Source: a virus
Direction: 5' to 3' (one strand)
Length of the DNA stretch: 38,694 nt
IMG/VR virus record: IMGVR_UViG_3300023110_000083
Span: 1 to 38,694 of that record
Shown: piece after piece, positions 598-30,807 of the stretch
Numbering within the stretch: position 1 is the stretch's first letter
Layout: every line of letters starts with the position of its first letter
Notes under the pieces: generated by a model
Databases searched by the model: none
What the model saw: only the letters and a program-made list of their open reading frames with translations
Told to the model about the DNA's origin: nothing
Made by a program: the position numbers and the translations under genes

Positions 598-615
598 AAA
601 TTTTAAATATTTAAT

Positions 616-623
616 ATAAATAG
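616..623 (-). promoter_or_regulatory. Late-promoter-like motif CTATTTAT before phoH
   Basis: CTATTTAT reads on the minus strand 18 bases upstream of the phoH ATG. This is the only copy seen in front of a minus-strand gene, and it has the same orientation relative to its gene as the plus-strand copies. It therefore helps to orient the motif. The promoter role is inferred. Confidence 0.5.
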
Positions 624-2189: not shown

Positions 2190-2516
2190 ATGAATAGTTG
2201 GAAAATTACTAATACATCTAATGAGCCAGTAAAAATTGCTTGCAAAACGGCTTCTATGAACTCAAAAGGAATTATACTAAAACCTAATGAGTTTTGCTTG
2301 GCAGAATGTCAACTTACAGCTTCAATAGATGCTCAAGAAAGAAGAGGTTTTATTTCTGTTGATAGAGAGTTTGATAATTCTAAATTACAATTAGAATATG
2401 TTACATCTTATACGAATAATCAACTTAAAGATTTAATCTTAGAAATGGAAGCAGCTGAAAAATCTGATTTTGAAAAAGCGGCTGAAAAAGCAGAAAAGTA
2501 CATTAAAAAATCATAG
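2190..2516 (+). CDS. Small protein of the head cluster, function unknown
   Basis: 108 residues. The N-terminal ~70 residues look like a compact beta domain (WKITNTSNEPVKIA, GIILKPNEFCLAECQLTAS, AQERRGFISVD). The last ~35 residues form an acidic then Lys-rich helix. Three cysteines lie at ~18, 36 and 40. No catalytic signature is seen. The fold hints at a small decoration or adaptor protein of the virion. The stop codon (2514-2516) lies one base before the proposed TTG start of the next gene, whose frame is already open back to 2470. Coupled translation, or even a +1 frameshift joining the two, is therefore possible. Confidence 0.75.
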   Translation: MNSWKITNTSNEPVKIACKTASMNSKGIILKPNEFCLAECQLTASIDAQERRGFISVDREFDNSKLQLEYVTSYTNNQLKDLILEMEAAEKSDFEKAAEKAEKYIKKS

Positions 2517-2517
2517 T

Positions 2518-3237
2518 TTGTCTAAAATAAACGATACAATAAATTCAACAGGTGATTTCTCTAGATTAGAAATAATAGATGGAAGCAACACTGTCTTTAA
2601 TTTTTCAAGTGGTTCAAATTATTTTGCAAATATTGATTTATCGTCTATTATGATAACAGAAAACATTATACTAGAAAAAAATAAAAATAATTTTTTAATA
2701 GTTAATAATGGAAAAGAAGTTATTACCTGGGATGAAAATCATGATTGTTGGTCTATATTAAAAATAAACTCTTTTAAAGGTAATTTTAAAGAAAATCTAA
2801 AAAATAAAGAGTTGGGATTTTCTAACACTAAAAGTTATATTCTTAGTAATAACATTTTAAATCTGATTTATTACATTATTGAAAAAGATGGAAATTACTA
2901 TATAAATTTAGATAAAAAATTATACTATAAATTTTCTAAAAACTCTTGGGTTGGTCTTGATTTATTAGGAGATTTTAAATTAGAAATAGAAAAATTTGTT
3001 AATATAGATTTTTTAAAAAAAAATAATAAATCTAAATTATTATTAGAAAAAATTCCTAAACCTATTAAAGTTAAAGATTTTGCTTTAGATGCAGGATATA
3101 TTTTCGCGCCTTATGTCCCAGCTCAAACCATTCAAAACAATATTATTATTGAAGATTACAATCCAAGAAAAAGATTAACTTCAAGATATGCAACAAATTT
3201 AGTAAATAGCAAATACTACACAACAGCAACAATATAA
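2518..3237 (+). CDS. Protein carrying a copy of the major capsid protein C-terminus
   Basis: 239 residues from a TTG at 2518; the frame is open from 2470, but that stretch only re-reads the end of the previous gene. Residues ~1-180 are Asn/Lys/Ile-rich and match nothing I recognise. The last 52 residues align without gaps to the C-terminus of the gp23-like capsid protein at 8685-10250, with 21 identities counted by hand. Shared blocks are AGY..APY.P, D(Y/F).PRK and RYA...VN..(Y/F)Y. In T4 gp23 the same segment (DAGIYYAPYV, then TRYG) belongs to the capsid fold. The protein probably occupies or contacts a capsomer-type interface, for instance as a vertex, decoration or assembly protein. A rare TTG start or frameshift expression makes the N-terminus uncertain. 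Confidence 0.75.
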   Translation: MSKINDTINSTGDFSRLEIIDGSNTVFNFSSGSNYFANIDLSSIMITENIILEKNKNNFLIVNNGKEVITWDENHDCWSILKINSFKGNFKENLKNKELGFSNTKSYILSNNILNLIYYIIEKDGNYYINLDKKLYYKFSKNSWVGLDLLGDFKLEIEKFVNIDFLKKNNKSKLLLEKIPKPIKVKDFALDAGYIFAPYVPAQTIQNNIIIEDYNPRKRLTSRYATNLVNSKYYTTATI

Positions 3238-3250
3238 ATAAAATTAAATT

Positions 3251-4480
3251 ATGTCTAATAAAATTAAAATACTTTTTCATCCATCTGACTTAGCGGGAGT
3301 AGGACACTTTCGTTCAATATGGCCAGCTCAAGAAATTCAAAAAAACTTTAAAGATGATTTTGAGGTCAAAATTAGTGCTCATATTAATTTTGATAATTTA
3401 GATTCTCTAAAAAAATATGATATAATTCATTTTCATAGAGCTTTAGGTCCACATGAAAGAATAGATGAAATTTTTAAAGAATTAAAAGAAGCTGGAGTTA
3501 CTTTAGTTATGGATTTAGATGATTACTGGACTCCTCCAACTACTCACCCTATGTATTATGCGGTTAAGGAGCAAAAGATAACAGAAAAAATTATAAAAAC
3601 TATTCAAATGTCTGATTATGTTACTACTACTACAGACATTTTTGCTAAAGAAATAGCAAAATATAATAGCAATGTTATAGTTATACCTAATGCTATAGAC
3701 ACTAATCATAAAATGTGGAAACAAGAAGATGTTGAAAAAGGTGACAAACTTAGAGTTTCTTGGATTGGAGGTTCTTCACATTTAGAAGATTTAAAACTGT
3801 TAGGTTCTTCAATGTCTAAATTACATAAAGATTCTAGTTTAGTTGATAAATATCAAGTTGTTTTGTGTGGTTTTGATGTTAGAGGTAATATAACAGAAAT
3901 AAACAAACAAACTGGTCAACAAAAAACTAGAAAAATTAAACCTCATGAAACTGTATGGAATAAGTTTGAGGAAATTTTTACTAACAAATATGAGATAGTA
4001 GATGAAGATTATAAATCTTGGTTACAAACTTATAAAAACGAAAAATATAAAGTTGACAGTAAAGATTTAAAATATGTTAGAAGATGGACTCTTCCTTTAA
4101 CTCAATATGGAAAACATTATAACTATTGTGATGTTTGTTTAGCTCCTCTTACTAAAAACACTTTTAATAAAGTTAAATCTGAATTAAAAATAATTGAAGC
4201 TGGTATGACCAAAAAGGTTTTAATAGCTCAAGATTATGGAATATATAAAGAATTATTGAAAGATGGTGAAAATGGTTTTTTAATAAATGATTCTAGAAAC
4301 CATAAAGACTGGTACAAAAAAATTAAGTATCTTATAAATAATCCTTCTGAAGTTGAAAGGCTATCTAATAACTTGCATGAATTTGTAAAAGATAGATATA
4401 GTTTAAAAAATGTTACAGAAGATAGGGTAGACACTTATAAAAAAATACACAAAGAAAATAAGTTAGTTACCGTTGATTAA
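3251..4480 (+). CDS. GT-B glycosyltransferase (GT4-like)
   Basis: A 409-residue, apparently complete glycosyltransferase of GT-B type. The N-terminal domain has a glycine-containing loop (SDLAGVGHFRSIWPAQ, ~12-27), then IIHFHRA (~58-64) and VMDLDDYW (~86-93). The C-terminal Rossmann domain begins near RVSWIGGSSHLEDL (~169-182). It holds the nucleotide-sugar-binding region KIIEAGM ... DYGIYKELLKDGENGFLI (~313-350), with the conserved Glu of the E-x7-E type. The enzyme should transfer a sugar from an activated donor; the acceptor cannot be read from sequence. Its place among capsid genes suggests glycosylation of a virion protein, while modification of DNA or host surface glycans remains possible. 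The start is an ATG 13 bases after the preceding stop, so it is likely co-transcribed. Confidence 0.85.
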   Translation: MSNKIKILFHPSDLAGVGHFRSIWPAQEIQKNFKDDFEVKISAHINFDNLDSLKKYDIIHFHRALGPHERIDEIFKELKEAGVTLVMDLDDYWTPPTTHPMYYAVKEQKITEKIIKTIQMSDYVTTTTDIFAKEIAKYNSNVIVIPNAIDTNHKMWKQEDVEKGDKLRVSWIGGSSHLEDLKLLGSSMSKLHKDSSLVDKYQVVLCGFDVRGNITEINKQTGQQKTRKIKPHETVWNKFEEIFTNKYEIVDEDYKSWLQTYKNEKYKVDSKDLKYVRRWTLPLTQYGKHYNYCDVCLAPLTKNTFNKVKSELKIIEAGMTKKVLIAQDYGIYKELLKDGENGFLINDSRNHKDWYKKIKYLINNPSEVERLSNNLHEFVKDRYSLKNVTEDRVDTYKKIHKENKLVTVD

Positions 4481-6600: not shown

Positions 6601-7239
6601 ATGAGTAATTCAGACAAGTATGTAATATCAGAGTTTTATGCTTTTGAGGCAGACTCTAACTTGATTAAAGAAGCTGAAGAAAAAAATAAACCTATCATCA
6701 TGAAAGGTATTCTTCAAAAAGCGAATACTGAAAATAGAAATGGTAGAGTTTATCCATTAGAAATCTTAAAAAGAGAAGCTAAAAAATATGAAGAAGCAGT
6801 AAGAGAGAGAAGGGCTACTGGCGAATTAGACCATCCTGATAGTGCTGTAGTTAGTCTTTCTAACGTTTCTCACATGGTTACAGAAATGTGGTGGGAAGGA
6901 GATACTCTTATGGGGACTGTTCAGTTATTAGAAACTCCTTCTGGGAATATTTTAAAAGGACTTCTTAAAAGTGGTGTTATGTTAGGAATATCTTCTAGAG
7001 GAGTAGGTTCTGTAAAAAACAAAAACGGTCTGGATGAAGTTCAAGAAGATTTCGAATTAATAGCTTTTGATTTTGTTTCTTCTCCATCAACTCCAGGAGC
7101 TTATTTATTTAAAGAATCTAAATCTTGGGGATTAACAAAATTAGACAACAGTACTTCAAAAATATTAAAAGTTAAAGATTTAGAAAATTCATTTGATGAT
7201 TTAAGTGAATTATCTAATAAAAAGTTTTGGAAATTGTAG
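6601..7239 (+). CDS. gp21: Prohead core protease (T4 gp21-like)
   Basis: 212 residues, the same size as T4 gp21, a serine protease of family S77. It matures the prohead by cutting scaffold and capsid precursors after [LI]-x-E sites. The fold markers are in order: GILQKANTENRNGRVYP (~36-52), GELDHPD with the catalytic-type His78 (74-80), the strand TEMWWEGDTLMGTVQLLETP (~94-113), and GISSRG carrying the nucleophile serine (129-134). Next comes EDFELIAFDFVSSPSTPGAY, typical of the family. The C-terminal tail from ~175 is probably autoprocessed. It is followed by scaffold and capsid in the order seen in T4. Confidence in family and role is high. Confidence 0.95.
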   Translation: MSNSDKYVISEFYAFEADSNLIKEAEEKNKPIIMKGILQKANTENRNGRVYPLEILKREAKKYEEAVRERRATGELDHPDSAVVSLSNVSHMVTEMWWEGDTLMGTVQLLETPSGNILKGLLKSGVMLGISSRGVGSVKNKNGLDEVQEDFELIAFDFVSSPSTPGAYLFKESKSWGLTKLDNSTSKILKVKDLENSFDDLSELSNKKFWKL

Positions 7240-7280: not shown

Positions 7281-7288
7281 CTATTTAT
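7281..7288 (+). promoter_or_regulatory. Late-promoter-like motif CTATTTAT before the scaffold gene
   Basis: CTATTTATTGGAAAC ends 32 bases before the ATG at 7321. The TTG inside it opens the scaffold frame 11 codons early, but that is unlikely to be the true start. Confidence 0.5.
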
Positions 7289-7320
7289 TGGAAACATTTC
7301 ATTTAAAGAAAATTAATAAC

Positions 7321-8649
7321 ATGTCTAAAAATACAAAAAGTTCTCTTGAAAAAGCTTTATTAGAAGCTAAAGAGATAGAAAAAGCGGCTTTACAAGAAGC
7401 GAGTAAAATTGCGGAAGAAAAGGTATTATCTAAAATAGAAGAAACCGTAATGGAAACTATAAAAGAAATTGAAAAAGAATCTTTAAGTGAATCAGTATCT
7501 ATTGACGTAGGAGATGCAGACGTTTCTATTAGCGTTAAGGATGGAGTTGCGTCTATAGATGTTGATGCTGATGAAGAAGATTTAACCATAACTCAAAAAG
7601 AAGAAGACGAAGAAGTTGAAGATGTAGAGGATATGGAAGACGAAGAAAAAGAGGACAAAGAAGACAAAGAAGACGAAGAGGAAGATGACGAAGAGCTTTT
7701 TGAAGTATCAGGATTGTTTGAAGAAGAAGAAGCTCCTGCTGAAGAAGAGGCTCCTGCAGAAGAAGCTCCTGCTGAAGAAGAGGCTCCTGCAGAAGAAGAA
7801 GCTCCTGCAGAAGAAGAAGCTCCTGCAGAAGAAGAAGGTGGTTCAACTGCTACAGTAGAAGTTCCTACTGCGTCTGCAATAGAAGATTTATCTTCAAAAT
7901 TAGACACTATACTTTCAAAGTTAGAGCAGCCAGAAGAAGACGCTGCTGAAGCTAACGCTGCTAAAGAAGCTCCTGCAAAAGAAGGAGAAGACGAAGAAGC
8001 TGTTAGTCCTGAAGGTGAAATTGAAATTGTTGATGATGAAACTGAAGAAATGGTTTCTGAACTTATGGATGAAATTGAAATTGTTGATGAAGAAGAAACA
8101 ATGGAAGAAGTAATGGGAGTAGGTAGTGGTGTACAAAGAGCTTTTGGAAATGGTAATCATAGAGAAAAAGACGGACATCATGCACCTGTAGCTCCTGTAC
8201 ATGGAGAAAGAATGAATGAAAATAAAGCTCATGAAGAGGCAAAATTAGCCGAGTTAGAAAAGGAAAACGAAAGTTTAAGAGAATCCCTTAAGGAGTACAA
8301 AGAATCGTTTAAAGTACTTCGTAAACAAATTAATGAGGTTCAAGTTTTTAATGCAAAGTTAGCTTATGTTAACAAGTTGTTTTCAAAGGGAGGTTTAACA
8401 AACGATGAAAAAGTTCAAATCGCTGAGAATTTTGACAAAACGAACACAGTTGAAGAAGCTAAAGTTCTTTATAACAAAATTGTTGGTGAAAATAAAACTA
8501 TTTCTGAGAGTAAAACTGAACAACTAAAAAGCAAATTAAAATCTAATAACCCTGCTGTTATAAGCTCTACAAAATCTGAAGCTTTATATGAAAGCAAAGA
8601 GATTTCTAGAATGAAACAACTAGCAGGAATTAAAACCTTAAACGATTAA
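7321..8649 (+). CDS. gp22: Prohead core scaffold protein (T4 gp22-like)
   Basis: 442 residues from the ATG at 7321; the frame is open from a TTG at 7288, but that lies inside the promoter-like motif. The protein is very acidic. Residues ~99-135 are nearly all Asp/Glu/Lys. Residues ~136-175 are a run of EEEAPAE repeats, and a long coiled coil covers ~303-360 (KLAELEKENESLRESLKEYK). The C-terminus ends with SRMKQLAGIKTLND, a tail I associate with T4-type scaffold proteins of marine phages. It should form the inner core around which the gp23 shell assembles and then be digested by the gp21-like protease. Neighbours on both sides support this. It is longer than T4 gp22 (269 residues), mainly through the acidic repeats. 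Confidence 0.88.
   Translation: MSKNTKSSLEKALLEAKEIEKAALQEASKIAEEKVLSKIEETVMETIKEIEKESLSESVSIDVGDADVSISVKDGVASIDVDADEEDLTITQKEEDEEVEDVEDMEDEEKEDKEDKEDEEEDDEELFEVSGLFEEEEAPAEEEAPAEEAPAEEEAPAEEEAPAEEEAPAEEEGGSTATVEVPTASAIEDLSSKLDTILSKLEQPEEDAAEANAAKEAPAKEGEDEEAVSPEGEIEIVDDETEEMVSELMDEIEIVDEEETMEEVMGVGSGVQRAFGNGNHREKDGHHAPVAPVHGERMNENKAHEEAKLAELEKENESLRESLKEYKESFKVLRKQINEVQVFNAKLAYVNKLFSKGGLTNDEKVQIAENFDKTNTVEEAKVLYNKIVGENKTISESKTEQLKSKLKSNNPAVISSTKSEALYESKEISRMKQLAGIKTLND
7726..7845 (+). repeat. Tandem Glu-Ala-Pro repeats inside the scaffold gene
   Basis: About 120 bases of in-frame repeats of GCTCCTGCTGAAGAAGAG-type units encode EEEAPAE. Unit length varies slightly, which suggests slippage or unequal recombination. 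The opposite strand has long open frames here that are only shadows of this repeat. Confidence 0.85.
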
Positions 8650-8684: not shown

Positions 8685-10250
8685 ATGAGTGAATTATTAA
8701 ACAGTGGTAATGTTGGTTTAACGAACTTAAGAACTCTTTCAGAGCAAAGAAAAGAGATTGTCTCTAACTGGGACAGGTCTGGTCTTTTGGAAGGTCTTGG
8801 AGGTTCTAAAAAATCTAACGTTGCTCAATTATTAGAAAACCAAGCGTCTCACATGCTTAATGAGGTGACTCTTGATTCGTCTGCAGGTCGTTTTGACACT
8901 GTAGCGTTCCCAATGGTAAGAAGAATCTTCTCAAGATTACTTGCTAACGAAATCGTATCTGTACAGCCTTTAGCGCTTCCTTCAGGACTTTTGTTCTATA
9001 TGGATGCTAGAGTGTCTACAGACAAAGTAGCTCCTGCTAACACTGCTAACGGTCAAGCTGGTCCTACTTTCTCTAACGACTCTGCTTACGAGAGATTTTA
9101 TGACAACAGAGGTCAAACTGCATCTTTTGGTACTGGTACAACTGCTTCTGGTACTTCAATATCTTATACGTCTGGTTCTACTGAATTAGTTGGAGGTCTT
9201 ATTACTGACACTTTTACTTTAGGTGCTGACTTTGATATCAACGTACAACAATCTAGCTCTACGCTTAGATTTGTTCCTACTGGTGATGTTGTTTATAACA
9301 ACTCAACTGTAACTGCTGCTGGTGGAAGCATTAAGTACTATTCTCAACTTCAAACTTGGGGGTCTGACCAATTTGCTAACCAACAAGCAAGAGTTGTTCT
9401 TGACGTAAGACCTGCTGGTGTTTATGGTTCTGACTTTGATGAGTCATTACTTGCTGACTTCGAAGTATTCCCAGTATACGAAGTATTCAACGACTTAGAA
9501 GCTAAGTCAGAGATGAGCGAGCTTACAATCAGATTCTCTTCTGTAACAGTAAACACTATTACAAGAAAAATGAGAGCTCACTGGACTCCTGAACTTGCTC
9601 AAGACCTTGAAGCTTACCACAGCATTGATGCTGAAGCTGAGCTTACTGCTCTTCTTTCAGAAGAAGTTGCTGCTGAGATTGACAGGGAAATCATTAGAGA
9701 CCTTATCAATGGAGCTATGTTCGAAGCTAGATGGGATTACGCTGGATTGAGAAATAACGCTAACTTCTTCGGAACTCAAAAAGACTGGAACCAAACTCTT
9801 ATCACTAGAGTAAATGAGATTTCAGCTCAAATCCACAAAGCTACTCTTAGAGGTGGTGCTAACTGGATTATTTGTTCTGCTGAAGCAGGTGCTATTTTCG
9901 ATGATTTAGAATACTTCCACGTAGATGGTTCTGCTCAAGCTGAGGCTGAGAAGTATAACTTAGGTATCGAGAAAATCGGTAACTTAGGAAACAGATACGT
10001 AGTATACAAAGACCCTTATATGCCTGCAAACATCGTGCTTTGTGGACACAAAGGTGATACTTTCTTAGAAGCTGGTTATGTTTATGCACCGTACATTCCG
10101 TTGCAATTAACACAAACTATCTATGACCCTAACGATTTCACTCCTAGAAAAGGAATCATGACTCGTTACGCTAAGAAGATGGTTAACAACAGATTCTATG
10201 GAGTTATCTGTATCGATAATATCAACACTTACCAACAAGTATATAGCTAA
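8685..10250 (+). CDS. gp23: Major capsid protein (T4 gp23-like)
   Basis: 521 residues, the same length as T4 gp23, the HK97-fold hexamer protein of the shell. Recognisable T4-family blocks are FPMVRRIFSRLLANEI then VQPLALPSG (~75-101), TPELAQDLEAYHSIDAEAEL then EEVAAEIDREI (~301-335), LGNRYVVYKDPY (~434-446), and the C-terminal LEAGYVYAPYIP plus PRKGIMTRYA (~459-495). Likely maturation sites for the gp21-like protease are LLE at 34-36 or 49-51; the cut has not been mapped. Codon choice differs from neighbouring genes: C-ending Asn, Asp, Phe and Ile codons are frequent, as expected for a very highly expressed gene. It follows the scaffold by 35 bases and is closed by a strong terminator at 10291. 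Confidence 0.97.
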   Translation: MSELLNSGNVGLTNLRTLSEQRKEIVSNWDRSGLLEGLGGSKKSNVAQLLENQASHMLNEVTLDSSAGRFDTVAFPMVRRIFSRLLANEIVSVQPLALPSGLLFYMDARVSTDKVAPANTANGQAGPTFSNDSAYERFYDNRGQTASFGTGTTASGTSISYTSGSTELVGGLITDTFTLGADFDINVQQSSSTLRFVPTGDVVYNNSTVTAAGGSIKYYSQLQTWGSDQFANQQARVVLDVRPAGVYGSDFDESLLADFEVFPVYEVFNDLEAKSEMSELTIRFSSVTVNTITRKMRAHWTPELAQDLEAYHSIDAEAELTALLSEEVAAEIDREIIRDLINGAMFEARWDYAGLRNNANFFGTQKDWNQTLITRVNEISAQIHKATLRGGANWIICSAEAGAIFDDLEYFHVDGSAQAEAEKYNLGIEKIGNLGNRYVVYKDPYMPANIVLCGHKGDTFLEAGYVYAPYIPLQLTQTIYDPNDFTPRKGIMTRYAKKMVNNRFYGVICIDNINTYQQVYS

Positions 10251-10593: not shown

Positions 10594-11052
10594 TTAAAAA
10601 GGGTATTTTTTATCTAAAACAAGTTTAACTGAATCATTTTCTACTCTAACATTTATTTCAAAAGCTCTTTTTGTAGCAAATTCACTATTCAAATAATGCA
10701 TAATATAGTTTGATTCATCTATTTTTTCAAGATTTTTCAATTTTGAATTAGACATATTAGTAAAAGAGTCTTCATAGTATTTCTTCAACTCTTCTTTTCC
10801 GTATTTTTTTATACTTTCAGAAGCGGTAAAGTTTACCATTTCTTCATAATTTCCTAATTTTCTTAAAGATTTAAAGAAGCTTAAAAAATCTGTACCATAA
10901 ATTATGGCAGGATTTGAAAATTGTGAATTTGATTCAACTTTTTCAGTTTTTGTTTCAATTTTTATTTCTGATTTTAAATTTTCTTTCTTTACTTCTTCAC
11001 TGCAAGAAAATAAAAATAAACTAGACGATAATAAAAGGATTAAATTTTTCAT
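10594..11052 (-). CDS. Phage-encoded lipoprotein, possibly surface-exposed
   Basis: 152 residues. The N-terminus is a clear lipoprotein signal: MKN, a hydrophobic stretch to residue 16, and lipobox LFSC with the lipidated Cys17. The mature protein begins C-S-E-E. In flavobacteria an acidic patch just after the Cys (for example S-D-D in Flavobacterium) sends lipoproteins to the outer surface, so surface display is plausible here. Residues ~48-152 look like a small alpha+beta domain of NTF2/DUF4878 type (FLSFFKSLRKLGNYEEMV, later strands FEINVRVENDSVKLVL); this is a weak fold guess. Phage lipoproteins often block superinfection by masking receptors or injection, which would fit. It lies downstream of the UVR-motif gene on the same strand. 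Confidence 0.82.
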   Translation of the reverse strand: MKNLILLLSSSLFLFSCSEEVKKENLKSEIKIETKTEKVESNSQFSNPAIIYGTDFLSFFKSLRKLGNYEEMVNFTASESIKKYGKEELKKYYEDSFTNMSNSKLKNLEKIDESNYIMHYLNSEFATKRAFEINVRVENDSVKLVLDKKYPF

Positions 11053-11715: not shown

Positions 11716-12105
11716 TTAATCTATATCAAATTTATATATAATTTTCCTCCCAGAAAAATTTTTTATAAAATTAGGAGCTTTTGTATCTCCAATTGTATCA
11801 TCATTAATTTCAGATATATGTAATTCTTCACATAAATGAATTGTAGATTCGTATATTCTTTTTCCCCCTATAATCCAATCAGGATTTTTTTCTAGAGCTT
11901 GTTCAAGCGTATTATATCCTTTTCCAACAACTATCATCTCTCTTCCTTTTAGTTTTGGTAAAGATTCGTATGTTACTCTTCCTACAAGCAATTTACATCC
12001 CATTGTTAAGTTTTTAAAATGCTTTAAATCTTCTTTACATTTCCAAGGAAGCTTATCATCCTTTCCAATGTATCCTTTTTTATTTATAGCAATAATTGCT
12101 TTCAT
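11716..12105 (-). CDS. frd: Dihydrofolate reductase
   Basis: 129 residues from the ATG at 12103-12105. The frame is open further upstream, but that part is simply the translated tRNA-Leu(UAG). It reduces dihydrofolate to tetrahydrofolate with NADPH and so supports nucleotide synthesis during phage replication. Family residues are present: AINKKGYIG (6-14), LPW (19-21), catalytic-type Asp26 in KEDLKHF, GR-x-TYESLP (42-50, NADPH side), DWIIGGKRIYE (76-86) and ELHISEI (94-100). At 129 residues it is shorter than typical DHFR (about 160) and ends soon after the GDTKAPNF block (107-114), so the last beta strands are reduced. No thymidylate synthase gene is in view. The gene sits between two tRNA-Leu genes without spacer on the 3' side. 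Confidence 0.9.
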   Translation of the reverse strand: MKAIIAINKKGYIGKDDKLPWKCKEDLKHFKNLTMGCKLLVGRVTYESLPKLKGREMIVVGKGYNTLEQALEKNPDWIIGGKRIYESTIHLCEELHISEINDDTIGDTKAPNFIKNFSGRKIIYKFDID

Positions 12106-12119
12106 TTTTTTTGTTTTTG

Positions 12120-12201
12120 TACAGATGGAGAGACTCGAACTCTCACGCCTTTCGGCACATGGGCCTAAACCATGCATGTCTACCAATTCCACCACATCTG
12201 C
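12120..12201 (-). tRNA. tRNA-Leu (anticodon UAG)
   Basis: 82-base class II tRNA on the minus strand. The acceptor GCAGATG pairs with CATCTGT. The anticodon stem CATGG/CCATG encloses loop TTTAGGC with anticodon TAG. The variable arm is TGCCGAAAGGCG and the T-loop is AGTTCGAGTCT. No CCA is encoded. It reads CUA and probably other CUN codons. It lies 14 bases upstream of the DHFR start and is probably cut out of the same transcript. Confidence 0.94.
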
Positions 12202-27555: not shown

Positions 27556-28242
27556 ATGGGATTTTATTATTCTCCTAAAATAGTAAGAGATGGGCTTGTG
27601 TTTTATGTAGATGCAGCAAATAGAAAGTCATATCCTGGCTCTGGGGTTGGTTGGAATGATTTGTCTGGTAATGAATATAATGGAACCCTAACTAATGGTC
27701 CTACTTTTGATTCAGGCAATAATGGTAGCTTAGTGTTTGATGGATTAAATGATTATATAAGTTGTGGAAATGAAAACAATTTACAAATTACAGAAGGTTC
27801 TGTATGTTGTTGGATAAAAACATCTGCACCAGGTTCGGGATTTAGAAGTATAATAGCTAAACAGTGGAATTATGGACTTTTTACCATTGATAATAGTACT
27901 TTAATTACATATGATTGGAGTGCAAGTGCGGTTAGGTCTACAGGAATAAATATTGCTGATGGAGAATGGAAATATATAGTGTTGACTTTTACAGAAAACA
28001 CTGGTAGTCCAAGCAATAATGCAATAGTTTATTTGAATGGTGAAAACGTTTTAACAACCACAATAAAATTAAATACAACTTATATTGTAGAATTACAGAT
28101 AGGCAATGGAGGAACTATATCTGGTGGTGCAAATCAAAATATAAATGCAAATATATCTCAAGCTAAAATTTATAATAAAGTTTTAACGCCAGAAGAAGTT
28201 TTACAAAACTATAACGCACTAAAAAATAGATTCGGATTATAA
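27556..28242 (+). CDS. LamG-like lectin-domain tail protein
   Basis: 228 residues, a single concanavalin-A-like jelly roll of LamG type. Diagnostic parts are DGLVFYVDAANRKSYPGSG, WNDLSGNEYNGTLTNGPTFD, SLVFDGLNDYISCGN, CCWIKT, WKYIVLTFT, AIVYLNGENV and the terminal ISQAKIYNKVLTPEEVLQNY followed by NALKNRFGL. Such domains bind sugars and are common on phages of flavobacteria. It lies three bases after the fiber and is probably displayed on the tail. The next gene's ATG overlaps its stop (TAATG). Confidence 0.87.
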   Translation: MGFYYSPKIVRDGLVFYVDAANRKSYPGSGVGWNDLSGNEYNGTLTNGPTFDSGNNGSLVFDGLNDYISCGNENNLQITEGSVCCWIKTSAPGSGFRSIIAKQWNYGLFTIDNSTLITYDWSASAVRSTGINIADGEWKYIVLTFTENTGSPSNNAIVYLNGENVLTTTIKLNTTYIVELQIGNGGTISGGANQNINANISQAKIYNKVLTPEEVLQNYNALKNRFGL

Positions 28243-28922
28243 TGGCAGGAAGAGTTTTATATGATATAGTTACTGATGGTTTAAAAATTTATTTAGACGC
28301 TGGGAGAAGTAAATCATATACTGATGGTTCTGATTATTGGTATAATATGGTAAAGCATGACCTAAGAGGTTTATTTGAGGCAAGTCCTACATATAATTCA
28401 GCAGAAGAAAATTTGTTATTTGATGGTACAGATGATGCTTGCGATTTATCATCAAAAGTAGATTATGTAGATATAAATAAAGGAACTTTTGTTATTGTAG
28501 TAAAGGCTATAAGTATTCCAGCTAATAGAGCGTTCTTTTCATTTAGAGTAAATAGTGAAAATAATATAGCTATTTTGGTAGATAACTCTGCGAGATATCA
28601 GTTTAAATATAAAGGAAGTAATACAACAAAGCAAGTAGAAGAGGTGTTGAGTATAGGCTCTGGTTCTCCTTTTAGAGTTTTGTCGATGACATATGATACT
28701 GAGGCAGATGAATTAAAGGCATATGTAAATGGTGTACAAGTAGGCTCAACGATAACAAGTCTAGGTACTTTTACAGGCACGCCTGATTTTTTAAAGATTG
28801 CGAGAGCAGAGACTGCTTGGACTAATTGTGGAGTTAAAAGCTTTCAGTATTATGATAAAGTTTTAACAGCAGAAGAAATTTCACAAAATTATAACACTCT
28901 AAAAAGTAGATTTGGATTATGA
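28242..28922 (+). CDS. LamG-like lectin-domain tail protein, second copy
   Basis: 226 residues, paralog of the gene just before it. It opens VTDGLKIYLDAGRSKSYTDG and ends YYDKVLTAEEISQNYNTLKS then RFGL. Between lie NLLFDGTDDACDLSS, VVKAISIPANRAFFSF, LSMTYDTEADELKAYVNGVQ. The middle is clearly diverged from the first copy, so the binding face probably differs. Its stop TGA overlaps the start of a 30-codon frame (28919-29011). Confidence 0.85.
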   Translation: MAGRVLYDIVTDGLKIYLDAGRSKSYTDGSDYWYNMVKHDLRGLFEASPTYNSAEENLLFDGTDDACDLSSKVDYVDINKGTFVIVVKAISIPANRAFFSFRVNSENNIAILVDNSARYQFKYKGSNTTKQVEEVLSIGSGSPFRVLSMTYDTEADELKAYVNGVQVGSTITSLGTFTGTPDFLKIARAETAWTNCGVKSFQYYDKVLTAEEISQNYNTLKSRFGL

Positions 28923-29011
28923 GTGGAACAGTAGGACTAAGACCAGAAAGTATTTTTAACCGATTTTCATTTGATATGGATGAAAACAATAGAGTATTAG
29001 ATACTCCTTAA
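28919..29011 (+). CDS. Possible 30-residue protein
   Basis: ATG at 28919 overlaps the preceding stop (ATGA). The 30-codon product begins MSGTVGLRPESIFNRF and ends RVLDTP. It fills a gap of more than 100 bases that is otherwise AT-rich only at its end. It may be a real small protein or the remnant of a longer gene; composition and coupling favour some coding past. Confidence 0.4.
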   Translation: MSGTVGLRPESIFNRFSFDMDENNRVLDTP

Positions 29012-29038
29012 TAATATAAAAATAAAAAATAATAAATT

Positions 29039-29299
29039 ATGTCACACACATTTGACCACAGAAATTTTATGATATTCAATGTATCCGAATTGGCTTCAGT
29101 GAATTTTAATGAAGTATTGGAAACTTCACAAGATACGGTTAGAAAATCCGTTGATGAAACAAAAACATTTGTTAAATGGGAAGGTGAAACTATACCATCA
29201 AGTGTTGATTCATTAACAACAAAAGAAGGTCCTTACACATATAATGAAATACTAACAATATTGTCCAACCCAGAATGGACAACTGAAGAAGATATTTAA
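29039..29299 (+). CDS. Small protein in the adhesin cluster, function unknown
   Basis: 86 residues: FDHRNFMIFNVSELASVNFN, FVKWEGETIPSSVDSLTTKE, YTYNEILTILSNPEWTTEED. It looks like a small alpha+beta protein with a C-terminal acidic helix. No family is recognised. It sits between two lectin genes, two bases before the next, so coordinated expression and an accessory role on the tail are likely. Confidence 0.72.
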   Translation: MSHTFDHRNFMIFNVSELASVNFNEVLETSQDTVRKSVDETKTFVKWEGETIPSSVDSLTTKEGPYTYNEILTILSNPEWTTEEDI

Positions 29300-29301
29300 T
29301 T

Positions 29302-30807
29302 ATGAGTACTGCAAAAGGAGGAAGCGATATAGTTAAAAGAGGTTTGATTTTTTATGTAGATGGTGCAAATATAAAAACTTATAATTCTAATAAAGATGCA
29401 TTAAAAGTTACAGATTTAGTAAATGATTCTACAGGACAGCTAGAAAATGGGACAACTTTTAATACAGATAACAATGGTATTTTTGTTTTAGATGGTACTG
29501 ATGACTATATAAATTGTGGTGATTTTATACCAATACAAAATTTAACTTACCCTTATACTATAGAATGTTGGGTAAAACCTGACATATCAACAACAAACGC
29601 AATTAGTTTTAAAGGTATTTTTTCGCCTGCGTGTATTATAGGCGGTTCTTATTATGGTATTAGTTTACAAACATCCCCAATAACTTTTGGGTCGGTGAGT
29701 CCTGAATTTGATGGCAACTATCAACTTCAATTATCTACTGGCAATGGTGGTGGTTCGGGTTCTAACAATAGAAGAACTCTTACAACTTTAGATAGAGTTT
29801 TTATTGGTAATGAATGGAATCAGATTGTTGGTATAGTTAGAAGTGAATCAGATTTTAAAATTTACGTTAATGGTTTTTACTCACATGGAACTATTAGTGG
29901 TACAGGTTCAGTTTTGAATTGGGGAACTAATACATTTACTTTAATTGGAGAAAAAACAGGTAGCTCATCACGAATAGATGGTAGTGTCTCTAATGTTAAA
30001 TTTTATAATAGTGAATTAACTGATTTTGAAATAAGACAAAACTTTAATTTGTTAAAACATAGATTTGGTATTAAAACAAAATTATTTGAGAAAGAAGAGG
30101 TAAGTGGAGAATCTGCAATAGTAACATCAGGATTAGTTTTTAATTTTGATGCAAGTAATAGTTCTTGTATAAGTGACCCAATAAATAGATTATTAAGTGA
30201 TACTACATTAAATGATTTATCAGGTAATAATGATGGTACTATTAAAAATGGTGTTGCATTTAATTATGAAAATGGTGGTTCACTAGAGTTTGATGGGTAT
30301 AATGATAGAGTTGAGTGTGGTACTGGTAGTACATTAGATATCACATCGGGTATAACATTAGAATGTGTTTTTAATGCATCAACAAATACACAAAATGCGG
30401 GTATTATAAATAAATGGACATCTGGTGCGGTAACTGATAATTCTTTTACATTCTTAGTTAATACAACTAGTAATTTAAGATTTATTTTATATGATTCTAT
30501 AACAGGTACAACCGATTTAACACTGACTTCTACCTTTAATGAAAATCAATGGTATCATGTTACATCTACTTGGGATGGGTCAATAATGAAAATGTATGTT
30601 AATGGTGTTTTACAACCTGAAACACTTTCTTATTCGGGTACAATAAACATTAGTACTAAACAATTAACTATTGGTACATTAAGAGAAGAAGACTTTATTT
30701 TTCCTTTTAATGGTAGGATTGCAATTAGTAGAGTTTATAATAGAGGATTAGATAGTTCAGAAGTTTTACAAAATTATAACTCATTAAAAGGAAGGTTTGG
30801 ATTGTAA
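29302..30807 (+). CDS. Tail protein with two LamG-like lectin domains
   Basis: 501 residues with two LamG-type domains in tandem. The first (~10-258) runs from RGLIFYVDGANIKTY through FVLDGTDDYINCGD and YTIECWVKP to FEIRQNFNLLKHRFGI. The second (~270-501) runs from SGLVFNFDASNSSCI through LEFDGYNDRVECG, WYHVTSTWDGSIMKMYVNGV to VLQNYNSLKGRFGL. Both end in the same Q-N-[YF]-N-x-L-K-x-R-F-G tail as the two genes before it, showing one expanding family. It is probably a two-headed glycan-binding appendage. Confidence 0.87.
   Translation: MSTAKGGSDIVKRGLIFYVDGANIKTYNSNKDALKVTDLVNDSTGQLENGTTFNTDNNGIFVLDGTDDYINCGDFIPIQNLTYPYTIECWVKPDISTTNAISFKGIFSPACIIGGSYYGISLQTSPITFGSVSPEFDGNYQLQLSTGNGGGSGSNNRRTLTTLDRVFIGNEWNQIVGIVRSESDFKIYVNGFYSHGTISGTGSVLNWGTNTFTLIGEKTGSSSRIDGSVSNVKFYNSELTDFEIRQNFNLLKHRFGIKTKLFEKEEVSGESAIVTSGLVFNFDASNSSCISDPINRLLSDTTLNDLSGNNDGTIKNGVAFNYENGGSLEFDGYNDRVECGTGSTLDITSGITLECVFNASTNTQNAGIINKWTSGAVTDNSFTFLVNTTSNLRFILYDSITGTTDLTLTSTFNENQWYHVTSTWDGSIMKMYVNGVLQPETLSYSGTINISTKQLTIGTLREEDFIFPFNGRIAISRVYNRGLDSSEVLQNYNSLKGRFGL

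Follow-up and report, generated by a model that had tools for sequence, protein, structure and literature searches.

In a T4-like myovirus, a gene separate from that of the major capsid protein (MCP) encodes a protein whose last 53 residues resemble the MCP C-terminus, joined to a longer N-terminal part of other origin. This chimeric gene, here called FUS (2518..3237, + strand), encodes 239 amino acids from a TTG start and lies in a 38,694-nucleotide stretch of viral DNA, IMG/VR record IMGVR_UViG_3300023110_000083, which was analysed at its full length (hereafter the window). FUS is not a one-off but a gene family, known in three lineages, and its product probably serves the phage head as a dispensable component or helper.

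The MCP resemblance of the FUS tail is real and not an artefact. A gapless BLASTP alignment pairs residues 187-239 (3076..3234, + strand) with residues 458-510 of the MCP encoded in the window itself, and 22 of the 53 positions are identical (E 6e-12); the core motif LDAGYIFAPYVP occupies residues 190-201. An MCP-tail HMM matches FUS with E 4.8e-20, and a shuffle test of the tail against the MCP gives Z 22. Profile-profile comparison by hhalign, a check that had been proposed in an earlier note on this DNA, returned a probability of 97.4% with aligned columns at exactly residues 187-239 and nowhere upstream. The C-terminal gp23 segment (PF07068) is also recognized by Pfam, whose Gp23 profile matches FUS residues 189-234 at profile positions 312-354 of 376 (E 6.8e-5), although the score of 22.9 bits is slightly below the curated cut-off of 24.4 bits. 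The N-terminal 187 residues, by comparison with the MCP, show no similarity (shuffle Z -1.6; no hhalign columns before residue 187), and an upstream extension of the homology, hinted at by one BLAST match, was unsupported by hhalign and shuffles. Thus, both observations of the earlier note, a gp23-like C-terminus on this 239-residue protein and a remainder unrelated to gp23, are borne out. The full HK97-fold core spans about 350 residues, whereas only residues 187-239 of the 239-aa FUS align; judged by its sequence, FUS lacks the full fold and is not a member of the gp23/gp24 family.

The window represents part of a T4-like myovirus genome; besides a gene for a PhoH-like protein and an operon of small genes, it carries those for a glycosyltransferase, prohead protease, scaffold, MCP, sheath and tube. 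FUS occupies a slot bordered by two conserved marker genes, a 108-aa gene directly upstream (2190..2516, + strand) and a glycosyltransferase gene directly downstream (3251..4480, + strand; Pfam Glycos_transf_1, E 1.4e-9; phrog_7162, E 7.9e-45). It shares strand and operon with the gp21-type prohead protease (6601..7239, + strand; Peptidase_S77, E 2.1e-31), a probable scaffold protein (7288..8649, + strand) and the gp23-type MCP (8685..10250, + strand; Pfam Gp23, E 9.1e-75), the donor of the copied segment. The scaffold gene lies between those of protease and MCP and is homologous to the gene at the same position in Flavobacterium phage immuto, which is also among the closest isolates for the MCP (39% mean identity). 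Related phages probably infect Bacteroidota. The best solved-structure match of the MCP model is T4 gp23 (Z 13.9). Upstream of the first gene of the FUS operon is TATAAATA (615..622, + strand), the T4 late-promoter consensus; it has 20 matches in the window versus 11.25 expected by chance, several of them in intergenic gaps, which is suggestive only. Two further features of the window were recorded in passing. A DHFR-like ORF, named by eye (11716-12201, - strand), has a nominal GTG start that overlaps a tRNA-Leu gene, and an internal ATG is probably its true start. Among the tail-fibre genes, 27556-30807 holds a series of similar lectin-like ORFs, and the one tested (27556-28242) matches Laminin_G_3.

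Relatives of the locus were found by searching with the conserved neighbour genes. Besides a near-identical phage from another sample (L001, 99.98%), two phages carry an intact FUS orthologue with its tail in the same slot, between the 108-aa gene and the glycosyltransferase gene: L091 (1753-2442; 37-38% identity to FUS) and L092 (4178-4987; 29% identity), the latter being the same phage as L093. ORFs of the family range from 229 to 270 codons across the three lineages, and the non-MCP N-terminal parts are recognisably homologous (shuffle Z 15-27). One base separates the stop of the 108-aa gene from the TTG codon of FUS, whose use as a start is supported by the orthologues: they begin with ATG at the corresponding position, 4 and 7 bases past the stop of the upstream gene. 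Because all orthologues have this start in the +1 frame, a +1 frameshift fusion with the 108-aa gene was also considered; it was rejected on the in-frame stop that L092 has between both genes.

The slot has other contents elsewhere. In L090 and L172, the 108-aa gene is followed by the glycosyltransferase gene within about 20 bases, so that the slot is empty, and FUS is absent from the rest of these contigs (232 kb and 138 kb, respectively). The more distant L094, L100 and their near-copies have an unrelated-looking 192-206-aa ORF there without a detectable MCP tail, and its kinship with FUS found no support (hhalign 0.4%; shuffle Z mostly below 3). In other relatives (L011, L013-L016, L018, L213 and L214), the slot holds other small genes or nothing. 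The glycosyltransferase tree unites L090, whose slot is empty, with the window, L091 and L092 in a single clade (100/99), and therefore one gain and one loss of FUS suffice. No other ORF with a convincing MCP tail was found in related loci fetched around the MCP, apart from the MCPs and the FUS orthologues, and a search for FUS relatives in bacterial and archaeal genomes found none.

The compared loci have peculiarities of their own. The glycosyltransferase homologue of L214 (5816-8287) is split by a ~400-residue insertion starting CYDSITEVLTDSGFKFFKDLNKNEKIACLN, which looks like an intein. The MCP frame of L018 (10001-11648) breaks at about locus position 10600 and resumes in another frame, owing to a frameshift, a sequencing error or a split gene. 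In distant relatives, a ~770-aa gene with a weak VWA-domain match lies between the glycosyltransferase and a 271-aa gene (L014:3977-6292, - strand; equivalents in L011, L013, L015, L016 and L018), and it is missing from the window's clade.

How old is the chimera? The MCP tails are virtually identical among the compared phages, whereas those of the three FUS proteins vary greatly, so the duplication predates the divergence of these phages and the FUS tail is an old partial duplication of the MCP, not a recent copy. Gene conversion of the FUS tail from the MCP is rejected by the same contrast. FUS evolves much faster than its neighbours, with 29-38% identity versus 57-88% for the neighbouring genes compared. 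Its best-kept 15-residue window, residues 188-202, is the MCP core LDxGY[IV][YF]xPYVP, in which 8 of 15 positions are invariant (hypergeometric P 0.002), an enrichment that is only suggestive because there are three sequences and the window was picked after inspection. Beyond these 15 residues, the MCP similarity of the L091 and L092 tails is largely gone, and the loop and PRK are lost.

AlphaFold, run with the orthologues and MCP tails, yielded a weak model of FUS (mean pLDDT 44.8). Residues 42-165 (2641..3012, + strand), a putative beta-rich middle domain, are conserved in both orthologues and modelled with pLDDT mostly 50-73. The model has beta hairpins spanning residues 43-88 and 127-162 (about 50-73) and a weak helical stretch near residues 93-124; like all of FUS outside the MCP core, the domain evolves fast and matched no known family. 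An internal beta-hairpin repeat in the N-terminal part was considered and found no support. The tail has pLDDT 31-42, and the same stretch is also below 50 in the MCP's own model (459-501), so the poor values are uninformative on the MCP conformation. Fold searches with this model (Foldseek; PDB, BFVD and VIA-align), which is too poor for the purpose, gave nothing above noise, and a PDB sequence search with the FUS family profile gave chance matches only. The earlier note knew of no described T4-type protein built this way, and searches of Pfam, PHROGs, NCBIfam, PDB and the openly accessible literature likewise found none of this architecture.

An accessory role in the head is favoured by where the gene lies, by the motif it has kept and by its distribution among relatives. 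The last is typical of accessory head genes, and FUS is dispensable across relatives, as the gene is lacking in the close relative L090. Our preferred reading, a tentative one, makes FUS an accessory protein of the head, docking via its MCP-derived segment. A copy of the 3' end of the MCP gene would have become fused to an unrelated frame; the product, made late from the head operon, would associate with the capsid or prohead via the MCP-derived hairpin (LDxGY[IV][YF]xPYVP ... SR[YF]), which would pair with, or replace, the matching MCP strand, and the shell would then bear the fast-evolving beta-rich N-terminal part on its surface or immediately beneath it. Judging from homologous capsid proteins of the HK97 fold, we take the copied stretch to be an internal hairpin of that fold and not a stand-alone domain, and docking would therefore need strand pairing or exchange. 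We infer a non-essential, late and head-associated protein, whose late expression, head location and docking mode are all predicted. The earlier note had placed the tail at a capsomer interface, which is plausible in that a retained, capsid-linked function fits a gene kept in three lineages, within the head-gene block and with the MCP core as its most conserved part, but none of the specific roles it listed gained support. One of them, a vertex role, is unlikely because FUS is without the rest of the HK97 fold and the gene is missing in a close relative.

Of the T4 head proteins, gp23 (PF07068) is homologous to the last 53 residues of FUS and shares the motifs YAPY(V/I)P and (S/T)RY with them, but FUS has no N-arm, E-loop or spine helix and is missing most of both the P and the A domain, and its other 187 residues are unrelated. 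The vertex protein gp24 is a known gp23 paralogue in the head, but a full-length one with the HK97 fold, whereas FUS carries the C-terminal fragment only. Hoc offers a possible likeness in layout, as it joins a variable N-terminal part to a conserved C-terminal capsid-binding part and is non-essential and patchy (PMC10385173). However, the Hoc C-domain is alpha/beta, unrelated to gp23 and preceded by Ig-like domains, and in sequence FUS matches neither: Pfam and PHROG gave no match to Ig-like or Hoc C-terminal capsid-binding domains, and the structural model is too poor for remote folds. FUS may be called Hoc-like in layout, with no homology to Hoc apparent from its sequence.

The main rival to capsid docking, and a serious one, is that the MCP 3' end was joined by chance and co-opted without a capsid role, its strand completing the FUS fold or being weakly constrained. 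The very fast evolution of FUS, the divergence in sequence and length of the tails beyond the 15-residue core, and the loss in one close relative all fit such an origin, but across three lineages no stretch of FUS is better conserved than the MCP core, and the gene has not left the head operon; we regard this rival as rather unlikely, though to be taken seriously. Another reading, which we consider distinctly unlikely, is that FUS is an internal (core) protein of the prohead, tethered by its tail to the inner shell or scaffold until the prohead protease cuts the body from the tail. FUS lies upstream of protease and scaffold, an (L/M)xE motif of the T4 prohead protease type stands just before the tail in all three proteins (LLLE/K, LLLE/T and LMIE/K; in FUS the LLLE is at residue 177), and LLE/G is invariant near the MCP N-terminus; however, (L/M)xE-type motifs are common by chance, with 5-6 per protein, and L092 carries M, not L/I, at the key motif position.

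Defences that sense capsid protein exist, such as Lit/Gol with T4 gp23, and CapRel (PMC9712102, PMC3014915), and they give a precedent, in general terms only, for the idea that the MCP-like fragment of FUS is a decoy that titrates a capsid-sensing host defence. Rapid evolution and patchy presence would suit an arms-race gene, but Gol maps to the first quarter of gp23 and not to the C-terminus (PMC3014915), and FUS neighbours head genes instead of early anti-defence genes; we consider a decoy very improbable. Equally improbable is a degraded MCP paralogue or pseudogene. FUS does hold only the last tenth of the MCP, but its N-terminal part is unrelated to the MCP, and ORFs of this length persist in the three lineages with homology in the non-MCP part too; the orthologues have largely refuted this reading.

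Returning to docking, FUS might represent a new capsid-associated class in T4-like phages, in which an MCP C-terminal fragment on an unrelated domain acts as a docking tag or as a competitor of the MCP in assembly, although on present sequence evidence this is somewhat unlikely. If the docking-tag reading is true, the capsid gene itself would have been the source of a capsid display system. Docking of FUS through its tail would reveal a route to new head-associated proteins, in which a copied piece of the shell protein is joined to another gene, and the segment would provide a natural tag with which proteins could be loaded into T4-type heads or displayed on them. Even without docking, FUS is a clear example of a capsid gene whose partial duplication founded a new orphan family, one that evolves fast and whose origin can be dated.
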